Shown here piece after piece: positions 31,784 through 60,028 of a stretch of DNA of 64,000 nt (position 1 is the stretch's first letter; every line of letters starts with the position of its first letter). This DNA is from Bacteroidales bacterium (lineage in GTDB: Bacteria; Bacteroidota; Bacteroidia; Bacteroidales; F082). Both the position numbers and the translations under genes were made by a program. The DNA is taken from positions 88,312-152,311 of the forward strand of contig JAFYNJ010000019.1 of assembly GCA_017549805.1 (NCBI GenBank), given 5' to 3'. The notes beneath the pieces were generated by a model. It did no database searches. It was given only the letters and a program-made list of their open reading frames with translations, and was not told where the DNA came from.

Positions 31784-31814
31784 CCCTTTCAAGTATCATT
31801 GTAGTATATTTCGT

Positions 31815-36697: not shown

Positions 36698-36712
36698 ACC
36701 TTAATGTTCAAC

Positions 36713-36742: not shown

Positions 36743-36758
36743 CTTAAAACTGAAGACC

Positions 36759-41191: not shown

Positions 41192-41195
41192 TACT

Positions 41196-43802: not shown

Positions 43803-43811
43803 TGGTGAGCG

Positions 43812-44813
43812 ATGGAAACATATAGCTACAGAGGAATCATTTCAACATTTAAAAATGTTGTCTCGTCGTTAAAAGAAGCCAAGCTTTGCTATGGCAATGA
43901 GGAGGGGCAGGAGTTTCGTATTATTGACAATATACCTAAAGACTGGGGTGATATTTACTCCATGAATGTCATTACTAAAGAGACTTTTCCTCTGCCTCAA
44001 AAAGTGAAATTGCGGTGGATAACACTGACGGATCTGAAATGTTATGAGCTAAATACAAAAATAGATACTGCTAAAATGGAAGAAATGTGGACGGAGCAAA
44101 AGAAACTCTATCCAAAACAGCCATTTAAGTATGTTGTTGTTGGCATTGCTCCTTATGGTGAGGTGACCCTCTGGCTACGGAGCAATGTCAATGCAGTTTT
44201 ATTTCAAAGGCTTAAAGCCAACGAGGTGGATTTTGACGAAATAGAAAAGTCCGTCTATTCAGAGATGAGAAGCGATGACGAGATAATGCAGGCCATTCTC
44301 TCGAAAGAACAAATAGAAAGTGTGATGAATCAATACAATTACCGCTATGTGCCTTTGGAAGAATACTTTGATGGCAAGCAATGGCGATTGTATGCTAGCG
44401 ATGATGCCAATTATGAAGACATAGATATTGAATGTGTGGAAGACAAGCGCGTGGATGGCACTTTCGATTTTACTGACAGTGATTCTCTCATGAAATACCA
44501 TACCACGGGAATGCCGAAGCGAATTACTGTAAGATGGAGTGAAAACAATGTGAACTATTTTGCTCATTTCTGGTTGAGCACTCATTATGTTACATGGTTC
44601 TTCGAGAGTTTCCACAAATTGTTTCCTGACACGCCTGTGGATCTGCTGATACGACTTGATACGCGCGCCAATCGTTATGAGGTGGCGATGACTGCAGAGG
44701 ACCTGATGCCAAGAGCTTTCATCGGCACCCAGTATATTGTTTTCAAAGATTTTGAGGAAATCGCCCGAAGTGAGTATTTTGACAAGGAAGACGGCGAATG
44801 GAGATGGTTCTAA
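43812..44813 (+). CDS. Putative immunity protein for the upstream effector
   Basis: This 333-residue protein has no signal peptide. It is beta-rich and aromatic (KVKLRWITLTDLKCYEL; KRITVRWSENNVNYFAHFWL), a pattern that repeats roughly twice and resembles DUF2931-type proteins of Bacteroidetes, often encoded beside effectors. The gene starts 9 bases after the effector stop and shares its AT-rich composition. Immunity function is inferred from position and composition. The family match is tentative. Confidence 0.65.
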   Translation: METYSYRGIISTFKNVVSSLKEAKLCYGNEEGQEFRIIDNIPKDWGDIYSMNVITKETFPLPQKVKLRWITLTDLKCYELNTKIDTAKMEEMWTEQKKLYPKQPFKYVVVGIAPYGEVTLWLRSNVNAVLFQRLKANEVDFDEIEKSVYSEMRSDDEIMQAILSKEQIESVMNQYNYRYVPLEEYFDGKQWRLYASDDANYEDIDIECVEDKRVDGTFDFTDSDSLMKYHTTGMPKRITVRWSENNVNYFAHFWLSTHYVTWFFESFHKLFPDTPVDLLIRLDTRANRYEVAMTAEDLMPRAFIGTQYIVFKDFEEIARSEYFDKEDGEWRWF

Positions 44814-45332: not shown

Positions 45333-46652
45333 ATGAAAAAATATTGCGTAATCGTCCTGTGTTTGCTATGCTCCATCGCAGCAATGGCTCAAGGAACCGA
45401 TACCCTTGTCTTCCATACGGTGGAGGTGGATCCCACCATTGTGCATGGCACGCTGAACGTGAGACCGACAGGAGAGGTCCAAGTGGGATGGAGGGTGAGC
45501 GTGACGGCCACTCCCGATGAGAACTATCATCTGGAATCCGTCACAGTGCACAAGACAACGGAACCCAATGTGACGGTCGAACTTGTTGAAGAACATTTTG
45601 TGATGCCCGATTTCGATGTGATGGTCACAGCAGTTTTTGAATCGGATCTTCCTCTGATTGAAGGCGAAATCACGGCGCCTGCCGCCATCTGTGCCGGCGG
45701 ATCGCTTGAACTGACCGCCCCGGTCGTACAGTTGGCCGATTCACAAGGGTGGGAAATGGCACCTAACGATAGCTTCCAACATCCTACAGCCTATACGGAT
45801 CAGCCTCTGGATGCTTCCTACAATGGTTGGAAGTTGCGTTATTGGGCCTCTAACCGAACAGGTACGGTGTATAGCAATGTCGTTGGCATCACGGTCAACG
45901 AGGTCAAGGAAGTGACCATTGCTGGCGACGCCATGGGATGCACCATGCAGGAATGCGAATACAGCGTCAGGAAAGAGGTTGGCCTGAACTATTCCTGGGA
46001 GGTTTCGGATGCCTCCGCCACGGTAACCGTGAACAGCAACACCGTCAAGGTGTGCTGGAGCACCGCAGGCACACAAAAGGTATCCGTGCTGGCTGAGAAT
46101 CCCACAACGGGATGTTCCGCAAATGCCGAATTGAGCGTCAAGGTGCAGAGTTATGTCAACCCATCCGACCTGAATGCCATCGTGGCCAAGAAACACAACG
46201 GCAAGGAGTACATCCTGATTTATCCGAATCCCAAGGACCACTACAGATACCAATGGTATAAGGACGGCCAAAAGATAGCCGGCGCTAATGGACAATACTA
46301 TTATCAAGAAGGCGGTTTGGATGCCGGTGTCTATAAACTCTACTTGAGTTTCAATGCCGATGCCAACGGCAACCTTTTCGGAGGTGCCTTCACTGCCGAT
46401 TACATCGTTTCAGTTGTTTCCAAACTCGACATCTATCCGAATCCGGCCCAGGAGGGTGACAATCTTGTGGTCGTAAACGAATTGGGCAACGAGGTTGAAG
46501 TCGCCATCTATAGTATGGAAGGCCGTTTGGTTCACCGTCAAACGGTCTCAGGGACGCAAGCCGTTCTCAGCATAGATCTGATGAAAGGCATCTATATGGT
46601 GCGTCTGTCCGACGGCAACAGCAATAAGGTTCAAAAGATAATCATCAAATAA
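45333..46652 (+). CDS. Secreted protein with Ig-like domains and T9SS C-terminal sorting signal
   Basis: This 439-residue protein has a signal peptide (MKKYCVIVLCLLCSIAAMAQ) and an N-terminal repeat-like beta domain (~25-110). PKD/Ig-like segments follow, with a final type A T9SS sorting domain (DIYPNPAQEGDNLVVV, then MEGRLVHRQTVSG and GIYMVRLSDG). Such proteins cross the outer membrane by the type IX system and are surface-anchored. Its place inside a T6SS operon, 8 bases before the Ubl gene, is unusual. A surface role in target-cell contact or in bracing the outer membrane part of the machine is only a guess. Confidence 0.85.
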   Translation: MKKYCVIVLCLLCSIAAMAQGTDTLVFHTVEVDPTIVHGTLNVRPTGEVQVGWRVSVTATPDENYHLESVTVHKTTEPNVTVELVEEHFVMPDFDVMVTAVFESDLPLIEGEITAPAAICAGGSLELTAPVVQLADSQGWEMAPNDSFQHPTAYTDQPLDASYNGWKLRYWASNRTGTVYSNVVGITVNEVKEVTIAGDAMGCTMQECEYSVRKEVGLNYSWEVSDASATVTVNSNTVKVCWSTAGTQKVSVLAENPTTGCSANAELSVKVQSYVNPSDLNAIVAKKHNGKEYILIYPNPKDHYRYQWYKDGQKIAGANGQYYYQEGGLDAGVYKLYLSFNADANGNLFGGAFTADYIVSVVSKLDIYPNPAQEGDNLVVVNELGNEVEVAIYSMEGRLVHRQTVSGTQAVLSIDLMKGIYMVRLSDGNSNKVQKIIIK

Positions 46653-46660
46653 TAAAAATT

Positions 46661-46975
46661 ATGGAAGACTTCTTTTTGTTTTTACGTTACAAGAACAAGA
46701 CCATCAAATTCAAGATCACTGACCCCAATACCGATTTGGAGGTGCTGATGACCAACCTGCGCAAGGCGGTTGACAACACGGGAACCCGTATCTTCGACCT
46801 TCCCGAGATGATCGATTATGTTCCCACTGAGTATTTCTTTGGTAAGAAAGACGAGGTGACCGGACGTGACATCATCTTGCAGCCAAAAGTCGGCAAGACT
46901 AAGAAGACTCTGTTGGACTATAACGTCAAGCCGGGTGATACGCTTGAAGTAATCTCGGATCCCATCGCAGGCTAA
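46661..46975 (+). CDS. Ubiquitin-like beta-grasp protein with free C-terminal Gly
   Basis: This 104-residue protein has the beta-grasp pattern: paired N-terminal strands (FFLFLRYKNKTIKFKI), a central helix (DLEVLMTNLRKAVDN) and a C-terminal segment LLDYNVKPGDTLEVI like that of ubiquitin/YukD-type proteins. It ends in Ala-Gly directly before the stop, so the Gly is already exposed for E1 adenylation without processing. An insertion of ~25 residues lies between helix and last strands. The E2 gene follows 24 bases later, and E1, RING and JAMM genes lie downstream in the same operon. Conjugation to a target is inferred from this set. Confidence 0.85.
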   Translation: MEDFFLFLRYKNKTIKFKITDPNTDLEVLMTNLRKAVDNTGTRIFDLPEMIDYVPTEYFFGKKDEVTGRDIILQPKVGKTKKTLLDYNVKPGDTLEVISDPIAG

Positions 46976-46999
46976 TCCATTGTATAAAGCAATAACAAC

Positions 47000-47617
47000 A
47001 TGGATATGGAACAGTTGTGTGAAATCGATCAACCAAGGGAAATTGATCAATACAAGAACAACCGCTATGTGGGACGGAACCGCCGTCTGATGCATGAGTG
47101 GTCGGCCATTGATCAGCGTTTCAGGAACGATCCCGACATCACTTATATCATCAGGAAACGGAACCCCGACAATCTTCCTGTGCAGTATGAGATTGTCTTC
47201 AAGGTGAAGTCGTTTTGCAACATTCAGGAACCTGATGCCAACGGACTCTGCCTGCCCGTTTGCGCCGATGTGTTCAGGATGCACATTACCATCCCGAACA
47301 ATTATCCGGCCGTGGATAGCAAGCTGGAGTTCAAGTTCATCACCCGCGACGAACAGGGCAATGAGATTCCCCATCCCTGGCATCCCAACATCCGCTTTTT
47401 CGGTGATTTTGCCGGCCGCGTTTGTCTCAATACGCCCGCTTGTGGCACATTCACCGATTTGGCCTGGTATGTTGACCGCGTGATGTCCTACCTCAGATAT
47501 GAGAAATACCACGCCTTGAACACGCCTCCATTCCCAGAGGACAACAAGGTGGCGGAATGGATTTTGGAACAAGCCGAACCGAACGGCTGGATTGAAAAAC
47601 TAAGAAACGAAAACTAA
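47000..47617 (+). CDS. E2 ubiquitin-conjugating-like enzyme
   Basis: This 205-residue protein has a UBC fold with strands YEIVFKV and FRMHITIPNNYP, then the HPN motif (H128-P129-N130, in PHPWHPNIRFF) and the catalytic Cys142 in GRVCLN. Spacing of 12 between Asn and Cys is slightly longer than in most eukaryotic E2s. The C-terminal helix region (LNTPPFPEDNKVAEWILEQ) is typical too. The N-terminal ~40 residues are an extra charged helix. It should accept the Ubl from the E1 (54853-56064) as a thioester. No inactivating change is visible. Confidence 0.9.
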   Translation: MDMEQLCEIDQPREIDQYKNNRYVGRNRRLMHEWSAIDQRFRNDPDITYIIRKRNPDNLPVQYEIVFKVKSFCNIQEPDANGLCLPVCADVFRMHITIPNNYPAVDSKLEFKFITRDEQGNEIPHPWHPNIRFFGDFAGRVCLNTPACGTFTDLAWYVDRVMSYLRYEKYHALNTPPFPEDNKVAEWILEQAEPNGWIEKLRNEN

Positions 47618-47623
47618 ACTGCT

Positions 47624-48781
47624 ATGAAAAGAATAACCATTTTCCTGCTTTCAGTGCTATTTGCACCGGCGATGCTTTTCGCCCAACTTAATGTATCTGT
47701 GTCCACTGAAGGGTCAACCGACCTCAAGGTGACCGTTCCAGGCTATAATGAACGCATTCCTGCTGCTGTCATGAACCTGAAGTTTGAATTCGACCAAGAG
47801 ACGGAAACCCTTTTGGTCCGCATGGGCAGCACCAACGAGAGTACAAAATACGACAAAATCTGGTTGCCACAAAACGACATCCCGTTTGGCGAGCTGAGTT
47901 CCTACATGAACAACCGTGGCGTCAAGATGGTGAAGTCCAATACTTTCGTTGACCAGGAGAATTTCTTGAATCTATCCAGTAAGACGATCAATGCTGCCAT
48001 CCAATGCACGGGCATGTCCTTCACTGGTGTGTACGACCTCAAATCGCCAAAGAAAGTCAAGAAGCAATTGGATCACCAGATGGTTCCTCTTGACGGCAAG
48101 ATGGAGCTTGACCTCAAGTTCAAGGTGTTCAAGGGTGTCAGCCGTACCATGCTGAAGCTGCGCAATCCCATTCCCATGGATCGTAGTGGAAGAAAGGGCA
48201 TCCTCGCTTTCATGGCTGACGATATCGTGATCAACATCAAACTCGAACGTTGCAAGGATGCAGAACAGTTGATCCAGACCATCCAGGAATATGAAGCACT
48301 CTTCCAAGTGGCGGAAGACAAGCTGAACGAACTAAAGAGAAACCCGAGTACGCAAAAGGCCTATAAGGAATTCGTTTTGAGGGAACTTTCCGTGATTGAC
48401 ATGGGACGCTTCAGAGATGCCGACTGTGAAGATGTGCAGAGCAGTTACCAAAGCCTGATGAACTGTATCGATAGGATCAACGACATGGGTTCGTCGTCTG
48501 GCTCGGGGTATGGATATGGCTCGGGAACTTCACAGGATTACGGTTGCGATGTCAATGCCTTGAACAAAGAGATCAAGTCTACCACCTCCAGTTTGAACAA
48601 CTTGGTCAACGACTGGTCGTTGGCTGGTTCTGCTGCAGCCAAAGCGGAGAAGAAAGCCGCCTTCGACGCTGCCGTGAAGAGGTTCGATGACAAGCTGAAC
48701 AGCCTGCCGGCTGGTTGCAAAAACAAGTTGGACCAAAAACTTATCAAGAACTACGAATTTGTTAAGAAACTAGTCAAATAA
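47624..48781 (+). CDS. Exported protein of unknown family, T6SS/Ubl operon
   Basis: This 385-residue protein has a signal peptide (MKRITIFLLSVLFAPAMLFAQ) and no further membrane segment. The N-terminal ~200 residues are beta-rich, and the remainder is helical, with a Gly/Ser/Tyr-rich linker (SSSGSGYGYGSG) near 290. It begins 6 bases after the E2 stop and ends 6 bases before the next membrane protein. I do not recognise it. A periplasmic part of a trans-envelope complex is the natural guess given its neighbours. Confidence 0.75.
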   Translation: MKRITIFLLSVLFAPAMLFAQLNVSVSTEGSTDLKVTVPGYNERIPAAVMNLKFEFDQETETLLVRMGSTNESTKYDKIWLPQNDIPFGELSSYMNNRGVKMVKSNTFVDQENFLNLSSKTINAAIQCTGMSFTGVYDLKSPKKVKKQLDHQMVPLDGKMELDLKFKVFKGVSRTMLKLRNPIPMDRSGRKGILAFMADDIVINIKLERCKDAEQLIQTIQEYEALFQVAEDKLNELKRNPSTQKAYKEFVLRELSVIDMGRFRDADCEDVQSSYQSLMNCIDRINDMGSSSGSGYGYGSGTSQDYGCDVNALNKEIKSTTSSLNNLVNDWSLAGSAAAKAEKKAAFDAAVKRFDDKLNSLPAGCKNKLDQKLIKNYEFVKKLVK

Positions 48782-48787
48782 ACTCCC

Positions 48788-49561
48788 ATGAAGAACGCTT
48801 TCCATAGACTTCTTCTTGTCGTGTTGATGGCGCTGTTTATGCCTGCAAGGTTTTTTGCACAGGACGACTTGGCGGATTTTGTCCGCGAGGAGCTGAACTC
48901 CTATTACAAGGAGTTGGTGAAACTCGACAATCAGATTGAAACCGCCGACGATGCAGAACGTTTGGAAAACCGCTACAAGAACCATATCAAGTTGGTGGAG
49001 TCATGCTATAGCGATTACAGTGAGATCATACGTTACGACAGAAAGCTGTATGCCATCTATGAGGACTACACCGACCTGTATCAGCAGATTGGCAAGAAAA
49101 TCGATGAACTGAAGGAGGAGAAAGCCAAGGAGGAACGTATTGATAAACTCACCGCAAAGCTGAACCGATATCTGGAGCAACTCACCGCATTGGAAGAGGA
49201 GGGTAACCGATATGTTGCAAGCAAGCGTGTCGACTCGCTCCGTGTCGTGAAAAAGCAAGCCGAGGATTGCTATGTGGAAGAAGCCACGGTGGAATACGGT
49301 GCCAATCGCGATTTCATCGATGAGAACGAGGACCTCACGCAGCTTTGGAGAAAGGTCAAGGACACTTATTCCAGGATTTCCACCTTGGAGATCATCAAGA
49401 GTCCCATCGACCTGACCTTTATTCTTGAACTTGTGGGTATCGTAGCAGCCATCGTGGTCACCATCACCATGATCAGCTCCAAGGTAAAGATGGCAAAGGC
49501 GATGAAACCAAAGAAAGAGAAGAAGCCCAAAAAGGAAGAAGAAGACATACCCTCAATATGA
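48788..49561 (+). CDS. Membrane-anchored periplasmic coiled-coil protein
   Basis: This 257-residue protein has a signal peptide (MKNAFHRLLLVVLMALFMPARFFAQ), a long heptad-like helical region (~30-170) and one C-terminal transmembrane helix (FILELVGIVAAIVVTITMI, ~215-235). A strongly basic tail (KPKKEKKPKKEEE) probably faces the cytosol. Its ATG-TGA overlap (49558-49561) couples it to the JAMM gene. The layout suits a periplasm-spanning connector. I see no match to TssL, TssM, TssN or TssO. Confidence 0.75.
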   Translation: MKNAFHRLLLVVLMALFMPARFFAQDDLADFVREELNSYYKELVKLDNQIETADDAERLENRYKNHIKLVESCYSDYSEIIRYDRKLYAIYEDYTDLYQQIGKKIDELKEEKAKEERIDKLTAKLNRYLEQLTALEEEGNRYVASKRVDSLRVVKKQAEDCYVEEATVEYGANRDFIDENEDLTQLWRKVKDTYSRISTLEIIKSPIDLTFILELVGIVAAIVVTITMISSKVKMAKAMKPKKEKKPKKEEEDIPSI

Positions 49562-51156
49562 TCAAGATGAAACAAATAGCAAGATCGATTTGTGCCGTAT
49601 TCCTGTTCCTTTCCATTACGGCTTTGGGGCAGGCTCCCACCATGACCTTTGACGGGAAAAGTCTTCAGGTCGTGGTGCCCTCCGGACATCTTGAGCTGGA
49701 AAAATCTGCCATTGAAAACGATGCCATACGTGATTGCATCGAGTGGGGCGGCCGCGAGACCTGTGTCTTCATGTCAAGTCCCGAACCCTATTACTTGAAG
49801 CCCTTTGGTCTCAAGGATGATGAACCAGTGTACTTGCCGGGGTTGTTCAATGAGGAACCCATCATGATTCAAGTAGAGATGAAACCCCATGAGCAACCCG
49901 TGCAACCCGATCCTGAACCGGCAAAAAAATCCTCCATCCTCAATGTGCTGGTCATCGTGGGGATTGCTTTGCTGTTATTGCTCATCGGCTTGTTCTTCAT
50001 CTTTAGGAAACGCAATAAGGGCAGGGCTTTCAAACCGAAAGAACAAAAGGGACCGGATGTGCTGTCCATGATCACCGACGAGTCGGTTGTTTATGAGAGG
50101 GGACTGGAACATGTGCGTAAACGCGAAAACGAATACCTGACCTTTGACATGGACCAAGTTTTTGAGGATACCGCTGTCAAGAAGGTATATTTCAACACGG
50201 ATCTTATCAAGAAACTGTATGATTTCTTCAACGGTTCCTTGGAAGACGGTGGCCGTACCAATGAGACGGGTTGTTTCATCCTCGGCTGTTGGGATCTTGT
50301 ACAGGGGAGGAAGGACCGTTACGATGTCAGCCTCGAATACATGGTGGAGCCTGGCGACGATGCCGACTTCGGCGAATACAGCCTCAATTTCGGTAAGAAA
50401 ATCGGCATCAACATGGCTTCGGTGATAGACACCCTCGGCCAAAAATCGAAACGCGACTATGTGCTGACCTGCTGGATGCACTCCCATCCGGGATTGGGCC
50501 TGTTCCTTTCGAATCAGGATCTGATCGTGCAGCAGCAGCTTACCTATTCCGATCACCGCAAGCGCCTGCTGGCCCTTGTGATTGATACCAACACCCCCGA
50601 CTTCAAGTTGGGTTTCTTCACGGCCAAGACCGACGGCAAGATGAACAACCAGGAAGAGGTGAGGCAGTGGTTCTCCTTTGAGGAGATCTATCGCCAAAGC
50701 CGTGAAATGAACCGCAATTCGGGTCCGAAGACGAATCTCTTGGAGGAGTTTAAGGCCGATCCCGATTGCTATACCATGGAACTCAACGACGAAAGCCTGC
50801 ACCATATCGGCTTTGCCCCGCATGCCATCAATCAAATCGACAATGCGCTGTATTCCAATTCAAAAGGCGTTGCCGGATATTTGTACGGCGATGAGACGGG
50901 CAATTATGTTCAAATCGGCTGCTGCCTGCCCTACGAGAACGAGGAAAAGGTGGCGTGTTTGATCAACGACAGCGACCTGGATGCAGCATCGTTGGCGAAA
51001 TACGCCGGCGAGACGGAGGGATGCCGTTTTTTGGTTCAATGCGTTGCCGACGACCAACTCCGAGTTTGGACCAGAAATGAACAAGGCGGCATGTCCCCGA
51101 CAGGTAGCACCACATTGACACAAATGAAAGAATGGATTCGAAGAAAGAGAGTATAA
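49558..51156 (+). CDS. Membrane-anchored JAMM (JAB/MPN) isopeptidase-like protein
   Basis: This 532-residue protein has a signal peptide, a short periplasmic part and one transmembrane helix (VLVIVGIALLLLLIGLFFIF, ~130-150). A cytosolic JAB domain follows. The full JAMM zinc site is present: Glu236, then H308-S-H310 with S318 and D321 in the exact H-x-H-x7-S-x2-D spacing. A second MPN-like segment near 410-530 (GYLYGDETGNYVQIG) lacks the Glu and His ligands and is probably a pseudo-MPN. JAMM enzymes remove ubiquitin-like proteins from targets or trim their C-termini. Because this Ubl already ends in Gly, deconjugation is the likelier job. Confidence 0.9.
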   Translation: MIKMKQIARSICAVFLFLSITALGQAPTMTFDGKSLQVVVPSGHLELEKSAIENDAIRDCIEWGGRETCVFMSSPEPYYLKPFGLKDDEPVYLPGLFNEEPIMIQVEMKPHEQPVQPDPEPAKKSSILNVLVIVGIALLLLLIGLFFIFRKRNKGRAFKPKEQKGPDVLSMITDESVVYERGLEHVRKRENEYLTFDMDQVFEDTAVKKVYFNTDLIKKLYDFFNGSLEDGGRTNETGCFILGCWDLVQGRKDRYDVSLEYMVEPGDDADFGEYSLNFGKKIGINMASVIDTLGQKSKRDYVLTCWMHSHPGLGLFLSNQDLIVQQQLTYSDHRKRLLALVIDTNTPDFKLGFFTAKTDGKMNNQEEVRQWFSFEEIYRQSREMNRNSGPKTNLLEEFKADPDCYTMELNDESLHHIGFAPHAINQIDNALYSNSKGVAGYLYGDETGNYVQIGCCLPYENEEKVACLINDSDLDAASLAKYAGETEGCRFLVQCVADDQLRVWTRNEQGGMSPTGSTTLTQMKEWIRRKRV

Positions 51157-51160
51157 AATT

Positions 51161-53512
51161 ATGAAACGAATAGCACTATTATTGTTTTTTATCGCATGTC
51201 TTTTCATGCCGGCCCTTGCCCAGGTGGACATTGAATTTGGAAAGGTTGAATGGTGTAAGGCAGGCCGTTTTATCGATTTCAAACTGATGCGCGACGGCAA
51301 GAAAGTTCCTCTTTTCGGTTTGAAGCCCGCTGACGGCCGTTGTTACGAGCTTGCCAACTCCGACACCGTGAAGCTTCATATCGACAGCCTTGTTGACATC
51401 TCCAGCCGCAAGTTGGTCTCCAACAACCTGACCATCGTGATCCTTGCCGACCAAGGCGTGTTACTGAGCGAAGAGGATTACATGAAAGTGAAGGAAGCCA
51501 TCGTTACCTTTGTTGACGCGCTGCCTGAATATGTCAAGGTGTATATTACCATGATGGGTACCGATGTCACAGAGACCGAGCGCGTCTATCCTGGCGAAAG
51601 CATCCGTTCCTACGTCCGTCGCGACGAGATGGCGGAGCAGTCCGAAGAAGAGAAGTCCATCTATGCTTCCATCATCTCCAAGATCCAGGAAATTGCCAAT
51701 TTGGATGAGGACGAGTGTTTCTATCCAGATATCCCTCATAACAAAGAACTCAGTTCCGATACCCTGTCCGACAAGATGCTGTTTATCCTTTCGGGCAAGG
51801 TGGAGCAGGATGAGGACGAGGATTTCTTCCGTGACAAACTGCTGTTCAACAATCCCGACTACCTTGAGATTCCTGAGCATTTGAAAGCCATATACTGCGT
51901 GTATTTTGGCGAGGAGCTGGATCAGGACATGGAAAATGAGTTCAAGTTTATGTGCCATCGCACTCCGGAAGGCCGCTTCTATCCTCAGTATTCGGTGGAT
52001 TCCCTGAAATATGTGCTGCTCGGTGCCATCGACTCCATTGCCATGGACTACCGCATGTATTACACGGTGGAGGAGAAGACAACTTACAACGGGCAACCCT
52101 TGAACCTTTGCCTTGACATCAACAAGGCCAAGGCGCATGGCGAAAAGAGCTATTCCATTGGATCTGCCCTTCGGCCTATTGTGCTTTCACCTGCTGAACA
52201 TTTTTCTAAAAAGGGTTGGTATCTCATGATACTTACCGGCTTTCTGATCGGCTTGGGAGTCATCATTCTTGTTTATCTCATCATGCAACTCATGGTGCCG
52301 TGGCTGCAATACAAGTGGTTCCGGATGAAATATGTCAAGAAGTTCAAACCGTCCGATGTCAAGGACGACGGCAAGGATGTGGTGTTGCAGCAGTGCTATT
52401 ACTGCAAGGACAATTTCCAGGAAGGTGACCTGATCGTTACCAAGTGCAAGCACACCGTGCACTGGGAGTGCTGGGAGGAAAACCACGACCGTTGCCCGGA
52501 ATACGGCTTGAACAGCTGCAAGGACGGCATCTATTACTATAACAAGAAGCACCTGTTGGATGAACGCAACTCACCCTATTTCACCTCGTGGCTGCTGTAT
52601 GGCTTGGCAGGTGGTCTCATTTCGTGGCTGCTATTCAAGTTGATTCGTGGTTTTGGCTTCTTCAGACGTCTTGTCGTTTGGATCGTCGGTTTGTTTGAAG
52701 GCGCGAACGCCGACCTTGTGGCAAGGGAATATGTCCAAAAGATCGTTCCCTTGTTGATGTGTGGCTTGATCTTAGGATTTGTCATCACCTTCCTCTTTGG
52801 TTATCTGATGGAGTTCCGCAAAAAGACTTGGAAGAACATGTCGATCATCTTGGCCAGGTCCTTAGGCAATGCCGTCATCGGTTGCATCGCGTTCCTGCTC
52901 GGTGCCATCGTGATCATCGCTCTCAAGAAACCGAGCAATTGCTGGTGGATCGACTGGCTGCCGTGGCTGTTCTTCGGCATCAGCATCACATGGTTGCTTT
53001 CCAAGAAATCGGACATTGAGTTTAAGGAAGCCTTCCTTGGCGGCTTGATTTCAGCCGTGTTGAGCTTTGTGGTTGTTTACGGATTGGGGTCCTCGGTGCC
53101 TATTGTGAGCGTATTGGCCTTTATGATCTACGCTGCTGGTTTGGGCGCTTCCATTGCCGTGGTCCACTATACCTCTGAGAACTATTATCTGCATATTGAA
53201 GGTCCGACCAAGGAGCGTGACATCGCCATCTACAAATGGATGAACGTGGCGGGCGGATCCAACCATGTTTCCATTGGAAGCTCACCCAATTGCGTCATTC
53301 AGATGACCTGGGATCCCAGCGATCAGATTCGCGAAAAGCAGGTTGAACTTTATATTGACAACGACCATCCTTATTGCCATGCCTTGACCGATGGGACGAC
53401 TTACGGCAATGAGCAGCGTGTCCTGAAGGAAGGCGACTCCTTCATGCTGTCGCACGGAAGCAGCTTCACGATTGGCAATACGAAGTTCACCTATATCGAG
53501 AAAGACAAATAA
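51161..53512 (+). CDS. Membrane RING-type E3-like protein with vWA-like and FHA-like domains
   Basis: This 783-residue protein has a signal peptide, then a periplasmic ~330-residue part with a vWA-like pattern lacking the MIDAS metal site (NLTIVILADQGVLLS). A transmembrane helix (~355-380) is followed by a cytosolic RING-type zinc domain with eight ligands: C412, C415, C429, H431, H434, C437, C445, C453. Several more transmembrane helices (~490-680) and a C-terminal FHA-like domain (VSIGSSPNC through FTIGNTKFTY) follow. The last ligand pair is spaced seven apart rather than CPxC. In the Ubl set it is the natural E3. The FHA part suggests phosphothreonine control, as with Fha in other T6SS. 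Confidence 0.82.
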   Translation: MKRIALLLFFIACLFMPALAQVDIEFGKVEWCKAGRFIDFKLMRDGKKVPLFGLKPADGRCYELANSDTVKLHIDSLVDISSRKLVSNNLTIVILADQGVLLSEEDYMKVKEAIVTFVDALPEYVKVYITMMGTDVTETERVYPGESIRSYVRRDEMAEQSEEEKSIYASIISKIQEIANLDEDECFYPDIPHNKELSSDTLSDKMLFILSGKVEQDEDEDFFRDKLLFNNPDYLEIPEHLKAIYCVYFGEELDQDMENEFKFMCHRTPEGRFYPQYSVDSLKYVLLGAIDSIAMDYRMYYTVEEKTTYNGQPLNLCLDINKAKAHGEKSYSIGSALRPIVLSPAEHFSKKGWYLMILTGFLIGLGVIILVYLIMQLMVPWLQYKWFRMKYVKKFKPSDVKDDGKDVVLQQCYYCKDNFQEGDLIVTKCKHTVHWECWEENHDRCPEYGLNSCKDGIYYYNKKHLLDERNSPYFTSWLLYGLAGGLISWLLFKLIRGFGFFRRLVVWIVGLFEGANADLVAREYVQKIVPLLMCGLILGFVITFLFGYLMEFRKKTWKNMSIILARSLGNAVIGCIAFLLGAIVIIALKKPSNCWWIDWLPWLFFGISITWLLSKKSDIEFKEAFLGGLISAVLSFVVVYGLGSSVPIVSVLAFMIYAAGLGASIAVVHYTSENYYLHIEGPTKERDIAIYKWMNVAGGSNHVSIGSSPNCVIQMTWDPSDQIREKQVELYIDNDHPYCHALTDGTTYGNEQRVLKEGDSFMLSHGSSFTIGNTKFTYIEKDK

Positions 53513-53526
53513 CAAAAACAAAAGAT

Positions 53527-54843
53527 ATGAAAAAGCTGTTTTTCCTATTGCTGATTTCGACGATGGCGGTCACGACGTATGCCCAGTCGCAGCTTTCCAC
53601 GATTCGCGGCAAGACCAAGGATGGGAAAAAGGTCAAGATTGAATATTACAAAGGCAATGTCGAAGATATGATCCAATCGATCAGTATCGAAGGCATGGAT
53701 GAGCTGCAGGACAAGGTCAAGCAATTGAAGTCAGAGTTGGATGAAGCCAACCAGGAGATCAAGCGACTGAAGAGCGCAACGCCCAGTTCCGATAATGAAG
53801 AATTGAAGCACCTTCGCAAGAAAGTTAGCGACTATGAGAAGGAGACCAAAAATCTGGGCAAGCAGGTCAGTGATTTGAACGAGGACATCAGGAATTTGAA
53901 CGAGGAGATAGGCATGTTAAGGGCAGGAGGGAGTGTCGATACGGCCGTGATTGAACGATATCATGCCATCCTCGCCGAGAAGGAACAGGAGCTGAATAAC
54001 ATGAATCAAGTGGTTGAGGCATGCAATGTGAAGATCGACCAGTTGAACCAGGAGGTCAAGATCCTTAAGGGCATAGCACGGCCTCCGGCGAGTCCGGTCA
54101 TCGGCATTGAGGCAGCCATGGGTCCGACTTTCCTTGGCAAGAACGCTCCCGAGCCATGGTCCAAGGAAGTGAATTGGGCAAAGCTGTTCGATGTGTATTT
54201 CGGTACAGCCAACTTGGCTGAATCTTTCCCGCTTTCGGTGGAGGCAGGCTTCGGAATCCGCACCTTCCATCTTGGTGCTGTGTTGCCTGAGTATTCCTTT
54301 ACGCTCAGGGGCTATGATGCCGACAATGATCCCGTTGAGTCCATCTATGCTTTTCGTAATCTTTCGGAAGACTTGGCATTGACCTATTTCGACATACCTG
54401 TCCGTCTTTGTTTCGGTCAGCCACTCAAAGACAGGGTGATCGTTTATGCAAAGCTTGGCTTGACCCCTTCGTTCAAGATTTCATCTGCGTTTACAGGTGA
54501 GGGAAAATATGATCTGGAAGGCTATTACCAGCAATGGGATGTTACCCTGGAGGACATCACGGAGTTGGGCTATGGTGAGAATCTCTCGTGCTATGACGGT
54601 TACGAGCCGACGTTGAAGTCGTTTGTGCTCTGGGGCAATGTGGCATTGGGTGCCTGTGTGCCCTTCAAGAATTCGCCCATTATGCTGAACGCCGGCATGA
54701 AGCTGGACTTCCCGCTCACTTCGTTGGGTGATGCCGCCTCGAAGGAAAACTTCCTTCCCGGAACGCACGCCGCAGTGCTGAGCCAAGGAGGCAAAGTGAT
54801 GATTCCAAGTGTGGAATTAGGATTGATTTACAACATAAAATAA
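53527..54843 (+). CDS. Exported coiled-coil plus outer-membrane beta-barrel-like protein
   Basis: This 438-residue protein has a signal peptide (MKKLFFLLLISTMAVTTYAQ), a long coiled coil (~50-180, with ELQDKVKQLKSELDEANQEI) and a C-terminal ~250-residue part of alternating strands. These end in a short aromatic-free strand (VELGLIYNIK) like the small Bacteroidetes outer-membrane barrels. This suggests a periplasm-spanning rod attached to the outer membrane. Its place between the RING and E1 genes makes it a candidate outer part of the envelope complex (inference). Confidence 0.75.
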   Translation: MKKLFFLLLISTMAVTTYAQSQLSTIRGKTKDGKKVKIEYYKGNVEDMIQSISIEGMDELQDKVKQLKSELDEANQEIKRLKSATPSSDNEELKHLRKKVSDYEKETKNLGKQVSDLNEDIRNLNEEIGMLRAGGSVDTAVIERYHAILAEKEQELNNMNQVVEACNVKIDQLNQEVKILKGIARPPASPVIGIEAAMGPTFLGKNAPEPWSKEVNWAKLFDVYFGTANLAESFPLSVEAGFGIRTFHLGAVLPEYSFTLRGYDADNDPVESIYAFRNLSEDLALTYFDIPVRLCFGQPLKDRVIVYAKLGLTPSFKISSAFTGEGKYDLEGYYQQWDVTLEDITELGYGENLSCYDGYEPTLKSFVLWGNVALGACVPFKNSPIMLNAGMKLDFPLTSLGDAASKENFLPGTHAAVLSQGGKVMIPSVELGLIYNIK

Positions 54844-54852
54844 ATCGTCGGC

Positions 54853-56064
54853 ATGGAAGAACTTGAAATCAAGGAATGGGGCAAGGAGGTCTTCGACCTG
54901 CTGTCGTGGTACAAAATGGATGTCGTCAAGAACGCCAAGGTATTGGTGGTTGGTGCCGGTGCTTTGGGCAACGAGGTAATCAAAAACCTCGCCTTGTTCG
55001 GGGTCGGCAACATCTATATCGTGGACTTTGACACCATTGAATACTCGAATCTGACCCGTTCCGTGCTATTCAGGGAAGACGATGCCGATAAGGGTTACTT
55101 CAAGGCAGAGGTGGCTTGCAGAAAGGCTCGTGAAATCAACCCGAATATCAATATACAGTGCATCTGTGGCAAACTCAACACCGATGTGGGATTGGGCTTG
55201 TATCGGAAGATGGATGTGGTGATTGGATGCCTCGACAGCCGTTTGGCCCGCTTGCAGCTCAATAGGCTCTGCATGCGTGCTGATGTGTCTTGGGTGGAAG
55301 GTGGCATGGAAAACCTTACGGGCAACGTGCGCATCTTTAAACAAGGCGAGAACTGCTATGAATGCGGCCTGACCGAAAATGCCAAGCAGAATATCTTCCA
55401 ACAGCTCTCCTGTGCCGGTGTCGCCCACCGAAACGAGAAGCAGGGAAGAATCCCTACTACGCCGGTCATCGCTTCCATCATCGGAGCCGTGGAGGTTCAG
55501 GAAGCCATGAAGCTGATCCATAAGGACGAGGTGCAGTCGGGTGTGTTTTCCACGCTATTGGGCAAATGGTTCCATTATGAAGGCATGCACAACCATGTCT
55601 CCATATATGACTCTGTCGCTTTCTTCGACGATTGTCCTTCGCATGAGTGTTGGAACGACATCGTGAAGATGCCGTCGTTGAGTGCCGATACGCGTATCAA
55701 CGATGCCTTTACCCTGATCCAAGAAACCTTAGGAGTGAAAGACGTGGAGATCAATCTCCGCAACGACAAGTTCGTGGATATCATCGTCTCAAAAAACGAC
55801 AACCAGCGCTTTACGCCCATGCTGCCCGAGTCGAAGATCTCCGATTACATAGATAACAACTACGATCTCTATACGCGTTCGAGGTCCGATTTGAACCAGA
55901 ACGCCTATGAGAACATTGACGAAGGATTCCCATATCAGCGATTGACACTTCGTGAGATTGGCATCCCGTATTACGATGTGATTGAAATCACCACCGAAAA
56001 GGGTGTGTTTCATGTTGAACTCAGCAAGGACGAGGACCGTTTCCCGATTGTTGTAAAAGAATGA
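54853..56064 (+). CDS. E1-like ubiquitin-activating enzyme (ThiF/UBA fold)
   Basis: This 403-residue protein begins with a ThiF-type Rossmann domain: G34-x-G36-xx-G39, the DFDTIEYSNLTR region (D58, D60, N66, R69) for ATP and the LDSRLARLQLN strand with its conserved Asp. The likely catalytic Cys is C187 in LSCAGVAHR, followed by the crossover segment TTPVIASIIGAVEVQEAMK. One CxxC pair (C168/C171) is present; the second pair of MoeB-type zinc sites is not obvious, although CPSHEC lies near 260. About 140 residues after 265 form a separate C-terminal domain, perhaps an E2-recruiting one (inference). It activates the Ubl encoded at 46661. Confidence 0.9.
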   Translation: MEELEIKEWGKEVFDLLSWYKMDVVKNAKVLVVGAGALGNEVIKNLALFGVGNIYIVDFDTIEYSNLTRSVLFREDDADKGYFKAEVACRKAREINPNINIQCICGKLNTDVGLGLYRKMDVVIGCLDSRLARLQLNRLCMRADVSWVEGGMENLTGNVRIFKQGENCYECGLTENAKQNIFQQLSCAGVAHRNEKQGRIPTTPVIASIIGAVEVQEAMKLIHKDEVQSGVFSTLLGKWFHYEGMHNHVSIYDSVAFFDDCPSHECWNDIVKMPSLSADTRINDAFTLIQETLGVKDVEINLRNDKFVDIIVSKNDNQRFTPMLPESKISDYIDNNYDLYTRSRSDLNQNAYENIDEGFPYQRLTLREIGIPYYDVIEITTEKGVFHVELSKDEDRFPIVVKE

Positions 56065-56070
56065 TAGACC

Positions 56071-56844
56071 ATGTCCTATTTTGACCAAGATCCCATCCAA
56101 CAAGAGCTTTGCGCTGAACTGTTGCTTTCGGTTTATTATCCCGAGATCAAGGAGTGGAGTGCCAACTATGGCAGCTTCTTCACCAGGAACTTCTCGGGCG
56201 ATTTGAAACACATTGACCCCAATGTCAAGATCGTGTCGCTATCACGCAACGGCATCTACGATGTGCTGCCAGAGAAGCTGTTTTTCGATCCCAACGAGTT
56301 GCGCCATAAGGAGAGCCGGGCTTTTGCCCAGCGAGTCACAGAGATCTATGAGGAGGAGAAGAACATCCAAAAGTATTTCCTGCCCTTTGACTCATTCTTC
56401 TTCAACCGTTCGTTAAATGTCCGCATGAATGTAAACAGGCTGGTGGACGACAAGACGGAATTGTTGCTCAAGATCCTGTTCGACTACGACATCCGTGAAG
56501 AAACGAATCCGTTTGTCCGCATGCTGGCACCCTTGCTGCTGCAAGTGACCGAACTGCGCGGCGATCTGGATCGATTGTCCACCATGCTGTCGGCAATCAT
56601 CGGTTGTCAGGTCGATTATCGCATCGTCAACCAAGACAGGGTGGTGTTCACGGTTCACAAACACAATTTGTGCAGCAAGGAATACAAGGAATCCATGTTG
56701 GAGCTGAAGCCCTTGTTTGTTTTTGTCAAGGAATGGTTTGTGCCTATGGAGTTGGATTGTGATTATCAAGTGAAAGACTACCAGCAGCCGTTTGTGTTGT
56801 CCGATGAACGGCCTTTGGTGCTGGACTACAATACGCATTTTTGA
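56071..56844 (+). CDS. tssG: T6SS baseplate protein TssG
   Basis: This 257-residue protein carries the TssG landmark SLSRNGIYDVLPEKLFFDP near 50-70, comparable to the YD-LPE-LFH motif of the family, and a helical region with LRGDLDRLSTMLSAIIG. It is shorter than proteobacterial TssG (about 330). It forms the baseplate wedge with TssF and TssE. It begins 6 bases after the E1 stop. Confidence 0.75.
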   Translation: MSYFDQDPIQQELCAELLLSVYYPEIKEWSANYGSFFTRNFSGDLKHIDPNVKIVSLSRNGIYDVLPEKLFFDPNELRHKESRAFAQRVTEIYEEEKNIQKYFLPFDSFFFNRSLNVRMNVNRLVDDKTELLLKILFDYDIREETNPFVRMLAPLLLQVTELRGDLDRLSTMLSAIIGCQVDYRIVNQDRVVFTVHKHNLCSKEYKESMLELKPLFVFVKEWFVPMELDCDYQVKDYQQPFVLSDERPLVLDYNTHF

Positions 56845-56874: not shown

Positions 56875-57759
56875 ATGAATACAGATATCAGAATTGATTG
56901 GCGCTCGGGAATGGAAATCACCCCGCAGACCTTCGTTGACATGGAGAACAACATTTCCGAAAACCGTTTGTTGGTCCGAAAGATGATTGCCGCCAAGTGG
57001 TTCGGCATTATTCCTGGGACGAAATTTTCAGTCAGCCACGAAATCCTCAATGGTTGTTTGGTGCTCAAGCAAGTCGTTTGCGACGTGCTGTTGCCGACCG
57101 GACAGGTTGCCGTGGTAGAGACCAAGGCTCCTATCACACTCAACATTCCCGATAAGGAAGTCGATGGGCTGTATCTAACACTGGAGGTCGGCGATCATCT
57201 TGTCTCTTTTGAGAAAGACGGAGTGCCCCATGTGGTCAATGAGTACCATTTCGATTTCAAGGCCCTTTCTGAAATAGGGAACCGGCAACCCTTGCTCAAA
57301 CTGGTGCAGAACAACGGTGCCTGGAGTGTCTATGAAAATTATGTTCCTCCGATCATGTCCGTTAGAAGCTCGGTGCCGCTGCTGGAAAAACTGGGCGAAT
57401 TGAAACAGGCTGCTGAGAAAATTGTCCACCATGAACACTTCGATCTGATGGAGGATCCGGTATTGGTGCTGACTCTTATCGACCAGTTGGAGACCTTCTC
57501 GCCAGACGATTCTTTGCGTGAACTGGTACTTCTTGACAGGCGCATTGCCGTTGCTTTGAGCTATGCCGTTATGAAACAAAAGGTTGAGCTGTCGGTGCCA
57601 AACATCATGGATGTGGAGCCCTACCTGAACGTCTTCAAGCAGTTTTTGGAGGATATCGCCGTAGCGATGAACGACCTGCAACCCAAAGTAGTTGAAGTGG
57701 TGAAGGAACCCGAACCGGAACCCGAACCCGAACCGGAGATCTGGTGCCCGCAGATTTAA
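56875..57759 (+). CDS. tssK: T6SS baseplate protein TssK, short form
   Basis: This 294-residue protein begins with the TssK hallmark (IDWRSGMEITPQTF, where the family has WREGM-LTPQHF) and a matching N-terminal shoulder domain. At 294 residues it is much shorter than proteobacterial TssK (about 440). It ends in a Pro-Glu repeat tail (EPEPEPEPEIW), so the C-terminal head domain that contacts the membrane complex seems absent. That fits a machine with a different envelope anchor (inference). Confidence 0.75.
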   Translation: MNTDIRIDWRSGMEITPQTFVDMENNISENRLLVRKMIAAKWFGIIPGTKFSVSHEILNGCLVLKQVVCDVLLPTGQVAVVETKAPITLNIPDKEVDGLYLTLEVGDHLVSFEKDGVPHVVNEYHFDFKALSEIGNRQPLLKLVQNNGAWSVYENYVPPIMSVRSSVPLLEKLGELKQAAEKIVHHEHFDLMEDPVLVLTLIDQLETFSPDDSLRELVLLDRRIAVALSYAVMKQKVELSVPNIMDVEPYLNVFKQFLEDIAVAMNDLQPKVVEVVKEPEPEPEPEPEIWCPQI

Positions 57760-57778: not shown

Positions 57779-58258
57779 ATGTTCATTAGAAACCCATTAC
57801 AACTGCGTTATCCCATAGTGGATCTCGACAACAGCCAGCTGAAGGCCTCCATCGACGCCTTTCTTCAACTGCTGATTGCATCCAACAAATACGACAGCAT
57901 TGCCGACCAAGAGTTCGGCTTCTGCTTGGAGGACTTCCGCTTCGAGGGATTCAGCACCGAGAAGGCCAAGTTCCTCGATCGGTCAACGATGGTGCTGGAT
58001 GCCGATGAGAACACCGAGCTGGCCGAGATTCGCACGCCCTTGTATCTCAAAAGGCTCGTCGGCAACAGCAAGAATGCCGATACCTTTGCCCGAGAGCTGA
58101 AAATGAGTATTGAACGTTATGAGAGACGGCTTCGGGAAGTTCAGGTGAACATGGACTTCCAAAAAAATGGCAGCCTTATCCATATTATCGTGACGGGTAA
58201 GATCAACAATGCGACCAATGCCATCTATTATAACGAATTTAATGTTGATGTTTGGTAA
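57779..58258 (+). CDS. tssE: T6SS baseplate protein TssE (gp25-like)
   Basis: This 159-residue protein has the gp25 lysozyme-like baseplate pattern: EFGFCLEDFRFE in the N-terminal half and MSIERYERRLREVQVNMDF near the end, with the family's final strands. It nucleates sheath polymerisation. It lies between tssK and tssF, 19 and 15 bases from its neighbours. Confidence 0.82.
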   Translation: MFIRNPLQLRYPIVDLDNSQLKASIDAFLQLLIASNKYDSIADQEFGFCLEDFRFEGFSTEKAKFLDRSTMVLDADENTELAEIRTPLYLKRLVGNSKNADTFARELKMSIERYERRLREVQVNMDFQKNGSLIHIIVTGKINNATNAIYYNEFNVDVW

Positions 58259-58273: not shown

Positions 58274-60028
58274 ATGACACAAGAAGAATATGATATTCAG
58301 GTACAGGTTGACAACCTGATGCAGAAGGTGCTTGAGACCTGGAAACGGGAAGGCAAATGGGACGGTAACAATCCCAACTCGCCCTTTTACGGCTTCGAGA
58401 AGGATCCTTTGCTTCGTATCCTGATCACCGCCTTCGTGTATCAAACCAACGGCCTGAAGGCCAATATCCAGAATCTGGAGCGGGAAGTGGTGGGTGATTT
58501 CCAGAATAGCATCTTGCCCTATCACATCACGCAGGCCATGCCCGCCATGACCCTCATCAAGACGGCCAAGAACCCTGAAGAGCAAGGCGATGTGTATTGC
58601 GACGACACATCCACCTTCCTTGTGAAGAAGGAGTCGCTCCGTCTCAAGGAAATGTTCCCGTTCCATCCGCTTTTCAAGACCAAGATCATCGGAATGAGCG
58701 TCAACGGCGTGACCAAGATTGCCAGCGACAAGTGGAATGTCAACATCGACGTCACCGACCAAAAGGCGGATCTGTCGAACTTCGGCTTCTTGATCACGGG
58801 ACTTCGCTATAGCGATGTGAGTGTTTATTGGAACAATGAGAAGCTTCCATTGATACGACCGTGGGAGTTTGACCGTTTCCCAAAAATGTCTTGGTTCAAT
58901 GATGCGAATATCGTCTTCAACAAATCCATGGTCTTTGGCGGCGAAAGCAAATGGTACGACCTGTGGGCGCAGTTGAACGTGAACTACTATATGGTGGAAC
59001 CGACTTTCCACCGTCCCATGGATTCCGACATGATCAACTTCGTGTTTGAGTTCTCTGGCATGTCCAGACCATTCAATCTGGAGGCAGACAACTTGGTTTT
59101 CAATTGCTTCCCAGCACTCAATGTGATGAAGAAGGACTTCCAGCTTTCGGGTGCCGAACCCATCCTGAAACTGACCAAGGAGTCGGACTACAACGACGAC
59201 GAGGAAGGTCTTGTCAAGAATGTCCGTTCCCAAGTGGACGAGAACAGCCATGAAGATTTCTTCATGAATTTGGTCATGAATCAGGATTCTTCGCTTGATG
59301 ATTTGGATCGTTTCAGTATCCGCCGTTTCGGCTGCGAGCGATTCAATATCAATGAATTGGTGCGTTTGGCCAATGAGTTGAGCAACCGTTATGAATCGGA
59401 TTTCTATGCCTTCCAGAAGATTCATAAGATGCAGAATACCGACAAGATCCGCCGGCTCGACATTGTGTTGAAGGATGTGCTGGGGGTGATTCTGAACAAC
59501 AAAGAGCCGCGCGCGGGAGTGTATGCCATTCTGAAACACGGCAAGGGGGACGGCAATCCTAATCCGATCCATCTCTCAGGCTTGTTTACCGACGGTGCCT
59601 ATGCCAACGACATTGACGTTTTCAGCGATGTGTCGGGTCCGAAGAACCTTGACAAAAAGGAGACAAGGATGCTGTTCAAGACCTTCGGTGGACGCGACGA
59701 GGTGATTGACAAGGACGAGAAGAGCATGCTGGCCAAGTATTACGCCCGCACCAACGACCGCATCGTGACCCGTGCCGACCTGAAGGCGTTCTGTTACCGT
59801 TATTTCGTACAAAACGGCATTGCCGACGTGCTGCTTGACGTGGTCAGCGTCATCGAACGCCAAGAAGACGGACAGACCAGGCAACATGTAAGCCTGCAGC
59901 TGAAAAACGACTTCGTGCGTGATCGCGAGGATGTGCCGATGATTGTGGATCGTCTGCGTAAGCTGATTGAGGTGCGCAGTGTGAATAGGTTGCCACTGGT
60001 GGTGGATTATCTGGCGGTGGTAAGTTGA
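58274..60028 (+). CDS. tssF: T6SS baseplate protein TssF
   Basis: This 584-residue protein has normal TssF length and layout: an N-terminal helix with DPLLRILITAFVYQTNGL, a central TLIKTAKNPEEQG and FHPLFKTKI region, and a conserved segment with VFEFSGMSRPFNLEADNLVFNCFPALN. It forms the wedge with TssG and TssE. It is the last recognisable T6SS gene in the operon. Confidence 0.85.
   Translation: MTQEEYDIQVQVDNLMQKVLETWKREGKWDGNNPNSPFYGFEKDPLLRILITAFVYQTNGLKANIQNLEREVVGDFQNSILPYHITQAMPAMTLIKTAKNPEEQGDVYCDDTSTFLVKKESLRLKEMFPFHPLFKTKIIGMSVNGVTKIASDKWNVNIDVTDQKADLSNFGFLITGLRYSDVSVYWNNEKLPLIRPWEFDRFPKMSWFNDANIVFNKSMVFGGESKWYDLWAQLNVNYYMVEPTFHRPMDSDMINFVFEFSGMSRPFNLEADNLVFNCFPALNVMKKDFQLSGAEPILKLTKESDYNDDEEGLVKNVRSQVDENSHEDFFMNLVMNQDSSLDDLDRFSIRRFGCERFNINELVRLANELSNRYESDFYAFQKIHKMQNTDKIRRLDIVLKDVLGVILNNKEPRAGVYAILKHGKGDGNPNPIHLSGLFTDGAYANDIDVFSDVSGPKNLDKKETRMLFKTFGGRDEVIDKDEKSMLAKYYARTNDRIVTRADLKAFCYRYFVQNGIADVLLDVVSVIERQEDGQTRQHVSLQLKNDFVRDREDVPMIVDRLRKLIEVRSVNRLPLVVDYLAVVS

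Follow-up and report, generated by a model that had tools for sequence, protein, structure and literature searches.

A ubiquitin-like conjugation set inside a type VI secretion locus suggests a part for protein tagging in building or running a contact-killing machine of gut and rumen Bacteroidales

A 64,000-nucleotide stretch of a Bacteroidales genome (assembly GCA_017549805.1, contig JAFYNJ010000019.1, positions 88,312 to 152,311; hereafter the window) carries a type VI secretion system (T6SS) locus, laid out on one strand from ClpV (from 31740) to TssF (to 60028), which encloses at 46661–56064 the genes for a ubiquitin-like protein (Ubl), an E2, a JAMM protein, a RING protein and an E1. By gene content, with a TssC of the PF17541 type together with tail and baseplate genes, the locus is of class T6SSiii. 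The arrangement suggests a role for protein tagging in the assembly or running of this contact-killing T6SS of gut and rumen Bacteroidales. A functional Ubl cascade is very probably integral to the system, and the Ubl module probably replaces the canonical membrane complex. We lean towards a T6SSiii sublineage with an envelope anchor built around the Ubl-conjugation module, with the RING ligase at the junction of baseplate and membrane, because the key residues are conserved, the set is fixed beside tssG, tssK, tssE and tssF, and TssN and TssO are missing nearly throughout.

A scan of a species-genome collection seeded with the RING alignment only, with 80 of 159 relatives kept, yielded 78 loci of this kind (Ub-type). 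By family profiles, TssK and TssF lie in reach in 72 of them; of the loci without both, L044, L060, L064, L086 and L094 are contigs of 3.5–7.6 kb, L094 carrying E1-TssG-TssK, and the sixth, L057, comes from a genome in which a TssC (327 bits) lies at another place. E1 sits directly 5′ of tssG on one strand in 65/65 loci called with both, at a median gap of 2 bases, and Ubl sits 5′ of E2 in 65/65 loci; assigning E1, E2, Ubl and JAMM by best family gives counts slightly below those from raw matches or motif scans. An earlier note on this DNA, made from its letters alone, had proposed a search for such co-occurrence in Bacteroidales T6SSiii loci. Chance insertion into a single genome is ruled out by the same counts, because the active sites are invariant and the linkage to the T6SS holds in dozens of genomes. 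Gene context thus supports the Ubl-conjugation set as belonging to this T6SS lineage.

Three architectures account for most loci. Architecture A, that of the window (21 loci), reads Ubl-E2-companions-JAMM-RING-E1-tssG-K-E-F; architecture B (30 loci), without JAMM, reads E1-tssG-K-E-F-Ubl-E2-companions-RING; and architecture C (21 loci, largely Prevotella and relatives) reads Ubl-E2-xB-xA-JAMM-RING-E1-tssG-K-E-F, mostly followed by further genes. Some loci deviate by at least one gene, part of them at contig ends. Among the taxa given in record titles are Xylanibacter muris, Xylanibacter ruminicola, Parabacteroides distasonis An863, Bacteroides mediterraneensis An793, Prevotella, Alistipes and Muribaculaceae. 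In an order-level survey of 393 genomes including the window's, the RING protein occurs in 6 and TssC in 18, with TssC present in 5 of the 6 RING genomes. The Ubl set lies inside a T6SS locus in the window's genome, G178, G046 and G388, which are apparently the same genomes as those of L049, L081 and L077, respectively, for the last three; no Ubl was called in G388, and L077 has one. In G242 the set is divided between two contigs: one has JAMM and RING, the other has Ubl next to VgrG, Hcp, TssC and ClpV. One RING-E1 contig, L064, is filed as Lachnoclostridium sp. UBA933, perhaps through a binning error, and L046 and L056 (RUI549) are tandem T6SS blocks on one contig, the second with Ubl and RING and no recognised E2, E1 or JAMM.

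Family profiles support each of the five enzyme or modifier classes, and the open reading frames and active-site residues that the earlier note had reported, five plus-strand genes with intact hallmarks, are all confirmed. The modifier (46661–46975, + strand) is an open reading frame of 104 residues ending in IAG, classed as YukD/ubiquitin-like by weak family matches. Its Gly is kept in 71/71 Ubls and is the exact C-terminal residue in 69 of the 71, with L063 and L112 bearing short tails after Gly-Gly. Pfam assigns family members to Rad60-SLD (13/32), ubiquitin (11/32) and YukD (9/32); the window's Ubl by itself reaches 0.11, below the curated cut-off. Against PDB sequences the Ubl profile gives mostly 0.02–0.1 for single ubiquitin, values near 1e-9 to polyubiquitin being summed over repeats. 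With profiles this weak, the Ubl fold is the weakest of the five class assignments: of the proposed Gly-ending beta-grasp protein, the terminal Gly stands and the beta-grasp fold is a suggestion of weak profiles.

The E2-like enzyme (47000–47617, + strand; 205 residues), recognised by open reading frame, motif and family profiles, has HPN at 128–130 and Cys142. HPN and the Cys are kept in 70/70 typed loci by motif scan, and the Cys in 71/71 relatives. The window protein matches Pfam at 0.0029, below the curated cut-off, UQ_con is matched by 23/28 family members, and the profile finds E2-25K among PDB sequences at 7.1e-6; the Prok-E2_B model gave no match in the window's genome, nor in any control. 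The E1 (54853–56064, + strand) is the sole window protein of the five with a strong Pfam match (ThiF, 5.6e-51). Its open reading frame combines a ThiF fold with GAGALG, a CxxC at 168/171 with C261/H264, Cys187 and an extra C-terminal domain, and its profile matches UBA7/UBA1 among PDB sequences at ~1e-29, better than MoeB (7.7e-27). Cys187, the CxxC, C261 and H264 are invariant in 69/69 typed loci; Arg74 is not kept in 21/28 architecture-B loci. Judged from sequence, two parts expected of a conjugation cascade are present: an E1 with ATP site, CxxC and catalytic Cys, and an E2 with HPN and Cys. The E1 also matches 18 phage records; the eight listed share 25–34% identity, and 4 of these are annotated ThiF or MoeB. 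Among 12 genes compared with three relatives, nonsynonymous divergence (dN) is lowest for Ubl (0.016, 0.034 and 0.038) and second lowest for E1 (0.022, 0.071 and 0.056), with TssF at 0.077, 0.082 and 0.186. Ratios of dN to synonymous divergence (dS), which are rough because most dS values exceed 1 or are undefined, are 0.010–0.023 for Ubl, 0.015–0.042 for E1 and 0.052–0.099 for TssF.

The RING protein (51161–53512, + strand) is a putative membrane E3 by open reading frame, ligands, hydropathy and family profiles. An N-terminal hydrophobic segment is followed by a VWA-like region, a transmembrane segment, the RING, several transmembrane segments and a C-terminal FHA-like domain. The eight ligands, in the region 412–453 (C412, C415, C429, H431, H434, C437, C445 and C453), are invariant in 72/72 typed loci and mark a putative RING-type E3 ligase. 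Pfam gives 0.0011 for the window protein, below the curated cut-off, and zf-RING_2 in 25/34, FHA in 13/34 and VWA in 4/34 of the family; the profile matches the RNF165 RING among PDB sequences at 0.0037.

The JAMM metalloprotease-like protein (49558–51156, + strand; 532 residues) was recognised by open reading frame, motif and family profiles, and carries HSHPGLGLFLSNQD and Glu236. Hydrophobic segments at 11–29 and 130–148 suggest a membrane-anchored protein with a cytosolic JAMM domain, and segments of this type suggest that JAMM and RING alike are membrane proteins. Pfam has no match for the window protein, and assigns 12/23 of the family to Prok-JAB and 8/23 to JAB; the profile matches Rpn11 among PDB sequences at 3.7e-10. 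The motif is present in 18/21 A, 21/21 C and 0/30 B loci, the A loci without it being L053 (which starts inside RING), L056 (a partial second copy) and L059 (apparently lacking it). No JAMM homologue was found in 30/30 B genomes nor in that of L059 with a single-sequence query, which found it in 3/3 A/C control genomes and leaves room for other JAMM types. Reversible conjugation, as the earlier note had it, does not hold as a general principle, because the family was not found in the architecture-B genomes. A requirement of JAMM for Ubl maturation is not supported either, given that Ubls end in a C-terminal Gly and JAMM was not found in B genomes.

Three further genes are interspersed among the five, at 47624, 48788 and 53527. 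The first (47624–48781, + strand; family in 49/78 loci, mostly A and B) encodes a companion protein with a signal-like N terminus, by eye, and a short stretch resembling xB of architecture C (hhalign 87%). The second (48788–49561, + strand; family in 46/78 loci) has, again by eye, a signal-like N terminus and a C-terminal hydrophobic stretch flanking a helical middle, and is partially similar to xA of architecture C (hhalign 76%). The third (53527–54843, + strand; family in 22/78 loci) has coiled-coil-type matches and a long C-terminal region. By these predicted features the Ubl module supplies envelope proteins of its own, in a place without canonical membrane-complex genes.

The strongest clue, invisible to the author of the earlier note, is that TssN and TssO are missing from Ub-type genomes. 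The known T6SSiii membrane complex is TssNQOPR, in which a ubiquitin-like domain is ascribed to TssN, with a proposed role in docking the baseplate, and a VWA-like domain to TssR (PMC10781749). Among 17 TssC-positive genomes (G273, with a match over only 42 positions, omitted), TssN (PF17555) was found in 0/5 that have the RING family, the window's included, vs 7/12 of the others (p ~0.04 by hand calculation, with two genomes <70% complete). Searches for TssN, TssO and TssR covered 71 Ub-type genomes, that is 71 of the 78 loci. TssN passes its cut-off in 1/71 (G398, B. mediterraneensis; controls 2/2), and five more genomes have matches below it, at 19–25 bits. TssO (PF17561) likewise passes in 1/71, again G398 (canonical controls 7/7), with two more genomes below the cut-off and no match in the window's genome (G000) or G242. 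In G398 both genes belong to a canonical locus apart from the Ub-type one, which also has TssR and a TssP-like gene, and there are two TssC, of 751 and 347 bits. The VWA part of TssR (PF20782) has no match in the window's genome, by a model that matched just 3/7 controls. Bacteroides mediterraneensis An793 (L070, L131) is accordingly a single strain bearing two T6SS, one of the Ubl type and one canonical, the latter with TssN and TssO.

The Ub-type baseplate proteins TssK, TssG, TssF and TssE are homologous to their canonical counterparts (99.3–100% by hhalign with family profiles), and TssK is reshaped. Architecture-A TssK, that of L081 excepted, is 282–320 residues long vs 380–405 in canonical systems; of these, the ones aligned with two canonical rows lack part of the canonical C-terminal half and all have a Pro/Glu-rich end. 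The tails of B and C differ from those of A, and the C-terminal ends vary among relatives. A fixed ‘aromatic-x-Pro-x-Ile’ end was considered and dropped; since the pattern occurs in only 25/73 rows, 0 of them in architecture C, and is absent from the window's row, our claim is limited to a changed tail. In other T6SS types, the C-terminal part of canonical TssK contacts the membrane complex.

We envisage the following scheme. E1 would activate the C-terminal Gly of Ubl and hand Ubl to Cys142 of E2. The RING protein would sit in the inner membrane by several helices, its VWA-like region probably periplasmic and its FHA-like domain C-terminal, and would drive Ubl transfer to a component of the membrane or baseplate. 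The modification could then fix or license docking of the TssEFGK baseplate, with its reshaped TssK; where present, the membrane-anchored JAMM might take off Ubl and reset the site, as an optional reversal. That docking or assembly is the specific role of the module strikes us as possible, a little short of an even chance. The fullest version, in which the module is the membrane complex, with a RING-ligase anchor, covalent Ubl coupling baseplate to envelope and TssNQOPR displaced, is offered tentatively. Enzymes and gene context are read from the sequence; we infer the membrane topology, substrate, direction and necessity of Ubl conjugation from them.

Several observations weigh against an anchor built on the Ubl module. 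The absence of TssN does not prove replacement: 5/12 TssC-positive genomes without the RING family also have no TssN (G239, only 65% complete; G247; G258; G270, split over ~330 contigs; and G331), and in the T6SS stretch read in G247, G258 and G331 no Ubl set was recognised. Besides G398, partial TssR_VWA matches over the cut-off occur in G448 and G242, at 35.7 and 30.8 bits; in the stretch read, neither has a recognised tss gene next to it. For TssP and TssQ, no match was found in the 78 loci with seeds from a single locus, L041; absence is weakly shown because these seeds matched L041's own copy plus one further copy in L131 and missed the other canonical loci fetched. The L041 seed labels are themselves doubtful, ‘TssO’ being the weaker and ‘TssQ’ the stronger of two TssO-like proteins by Pfam. 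Homology of the module to TssN, TssO, TssP, TssQ or TssR was sought and not found: in the hhalign pairs run, which left out E1 and E2 and used single L041 sequences as TssO/P/Q/R profiles, Ubl, RING and its parts, JAMM and the companions gave no profile match (<=3.8%), with baseplate control pairs positive and three mismatched pairs negative. Related modules exist in G016, G527 and G621, genomes where TssC was not found, and because of these the module is not intrinsically part of a T6SS. E1 and TssF distances correlate (r 0.76, 0/999 permutations, 68 rows), which could also stem from shared ancestry. The membrane topology, finally, is derived from hydropathy.

Bil is a bacterial system that uses Ubl-type conjugation against phages, and the window's set might be such a defence system, of the Bil or CBASS (cyclic-oligonucleotide-based anti-phage signalling system) kind, sitting as cargo in the T6SS locus. 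We consider this highly improbable. Ubl-type conjugation is indeed known in CBASS (PMC10097602), and the E1 has PADLOC E1-E2 matches (best 1.9e-14), but the other four proteins have none, TssK and TssF accompany the set in 72/78 loci, E1 adjoins tssG in 65/65, the putative ligase and deconjugase look membrane-anchored, and neither the 9.4-kb DNA (near mode) nor the RING protein has a plasmid match. It is unlikely, too, that the Ubl tag serves to load effectors, Hcp or VgrG, or to hand used components to ClpV or proteolysis, instead of building an anchor. In A and C loci with the VgrG/PAAR region in reach, Ubl and E2 do lie 3′ of it, but in architecture B they come after tssF, the most fixed neighbour is tssG, and a multi-transmembrane ligase with a VWA-like region suits an envelope platform more than soluble cargo. 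The control of ‘recycling or cargo’ that the earlier note had proposed gains nothing from these data, the fixed neighbours being baseplate and envelope genes.

Ubl could instead be a non-covalent structural subunit of the YukD/EccD type, with E1, E2 and RING vestigial or devoted to other chemistry. YukD matches in 9/32 Ubls fit such a role, as does the ubiquitin-like domain described for canonical TssN, with baseplate docking as its proposed task (PMC10781749); the invariance of the E1 Cys, the E2 Cys, the RING ligands and the terminal Gly of Ubl, and the lack of profile similarity between Ubl and TssN, make it improbable. The module might also be an envelope-stress or contact sensor that tunes T6SS firing, with VWA outside and FHA and RING inside, while an unrecognised complex anchors the machine. 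The RING family does match VWA and FHA, and other anchors may exist because some T6SS genomes lack TssN and the RING family alike; among the families modelled in the family table, however, no further multi-transmembrane family appears, and this explanation also seems to us unlikely. The Ubl-based anchor remains the reading that we favour.

The origin of that anchor can be approached through two trees. In a TssF tree, made by a quick method with approximate likelihood-ratio (SH-aLRT) supports only, 71 Ub-type rows and G258 are separated from the canonical rows, G247, G331 and L081 by a branch with support 100, with a long-branch warning for G258 and L081. In the E1 tree, L081 is the first to branch (support 96) after an outgroup of three E1s from genomes without TssC. 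L081 couples a Ubl module to canonical-like TssF and TssC, and TssN was not found in it (searched as G046). We tentatively suggest that a module already in existence was recruited once by a canonical-like T6SSiii, L081 being an early branch. At E <=1e-10, the RING profile finds among 395 genomes of the phylum only the window's genome, G527 and G621. The modules of the last two (L135–L138) lie outside the order, in the same class, and their Ubls end in VPG or VPGGK. In G016 (L015:1548-18543, L038:4939-6884), an E1-Ubl-E2-JAMM-RING set lies beside SrfB (PF07520, 1e-213) and an SrfC-like protein (PF10139, 1.8e-139), accompanied by another JAMM-type protein and by a longer one with a Ubl-like start; its Ubl has a four-residue tail past the Gly.

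Sets of this composition have precedents outside secretion. Burroughs et al. reportedly predicted, in 2011, prokaryotic sets with RING-containing E1/E2/JAB/YukD-like Ubl combinations, and by that definition the window agrees in having E1, E2, RING, JAB and a YukD/ubiquitin-like Ubl; the extra C-terminal domain of the E1 is UFD-like only by eye. To our knowledge, that work placed none of its sets in a T6SS context. The earlier note was only half right in remarking on the usually smaller number of parts in bacterial sets, given these reportedly predicted RING-containing sets and an archaeal cascade. The latter, reconstituted in 2017, comprises E1/E2/(RING) E3 and comes from an uncultured archaeon (PMC5654768). 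As described, the archaeal Ub/E1/E2/RING/Rpn11 system (PMC5654768, PMC6043591) shares the five-part logic, including an Rpn11-like JAMM; in the window type, by contrast, RING and JAMM look membrane-bound and the genes keep a fixed place with those of a secretion machine. With CBASS conjugation (PMC10097602) the window shares bacterial Ubl-type conjugation chemistry; it differs from CBASS and Bil in that PADLOC matches only the E1 and in operon, context and topology. A ubiquitin-like protein is also known from Bacteroides antagonism, in B. fragilis (PMC5705921), where it is itself described as a secreted antagonistic protein. The closest relatives are T6SSiii with TssNQOPR (GA1–GA3; PMC10781749, PMC4714493), to which TssB/C, Hcp, VgrG, ClpV and TssE/F/G/K are homologous and whose TssC model, PF17541, the window-type TssC passes. 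The differences are that TssN and TssO are missing here, with the Ubl module instead and TssK reshaped, and that 71/72 Ub-type TssF rows, with G258, stand apart from the canonical rows.

No report of a Ubl-conjugation set in a T6SS locus was found in the literature searched, which did not extend to most subscription papers and preprints, so that an earlier mention is possible; within that literature, the earlier note was right to recall none. We know of no secretion system with ubiquitin-style conjugation as part of its machinery, and none came up in that literature. A human-gut survey excluded Prevotella apart from two species and recorded two loci that fit none of its three types (PMC4714493), so that the Ub-type lineage could easily have escaped notice. 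The module is testable because it is present in Bacteroidales of several families, including named strains such as Xylanibacter muris PMUR and B. mediterraneensis An793. A role in the T6SS would take bacterial E1-E2-RING cascades beyond phage defence, help to explain how a T6SSiii branch can dispense with TssN and TssO, and be an instance of a large protein assembly put together with ubiquitin chemistry. If the Ubl module were the membrane complex, the assembly of a secretion system would include covalent tagging as a structural step.

The remaining T6SS genes of the window are all on the + strand. ClpV (TssH, 31740–34310) is named by a Pfam match and homology to other loci, and TssB (34386–34847), with no Pfam match, by position and homology to other loci; the T6SSiii TssC (34872–36245) matches PF17541 at 5e-103. 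Two Hcp (TssD) genes follow at 36305–37274, the first (36305–36697) by PF17642 at 4.9e-28 and the second (36759–37274) by homology. VgrG (TssI, 37291–39621) is named by eye and by homologous genes at the equivalent place in other loci. Downstream of the set, TssG (56071–56844) and TssK (56875–57759; 294 residues with a Pro/Glu-rich tail, shorter than canonical) match canonical families at 99.9% and 99.8% by hhalign, TssE (57779–58258) matches Pfam gp25 at 2.5e-6 and its canonical family at 99.3%, and TssF (58274–60028) matches at 100%. Between VgrG and the set, a DUF4280 (PAAR-like) protein (40472–41191, Pfam match) is followed by 868- and 333-residue proteins in an effector-immunity-like arrangement (40472–44813), and directly 5′ of Ubl lies a protein (45333–46652, + strand) with an InlB-like repeat, a weak PKD match and a type IX secretion (T9SS) sorting tail, whose family occurs in 14/78 loci by family profiles. 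In L141 (G448), a 793-residue protein with the partial TssR_VWA match lies near genes resembling the window's 53527 and 45333 families. The T6SSiii loci without TssN and the RING family (L032–L037, from G258, G247 and G331) share gene family n3 with architecture C, and may, from their gene content, have another type of anchor.

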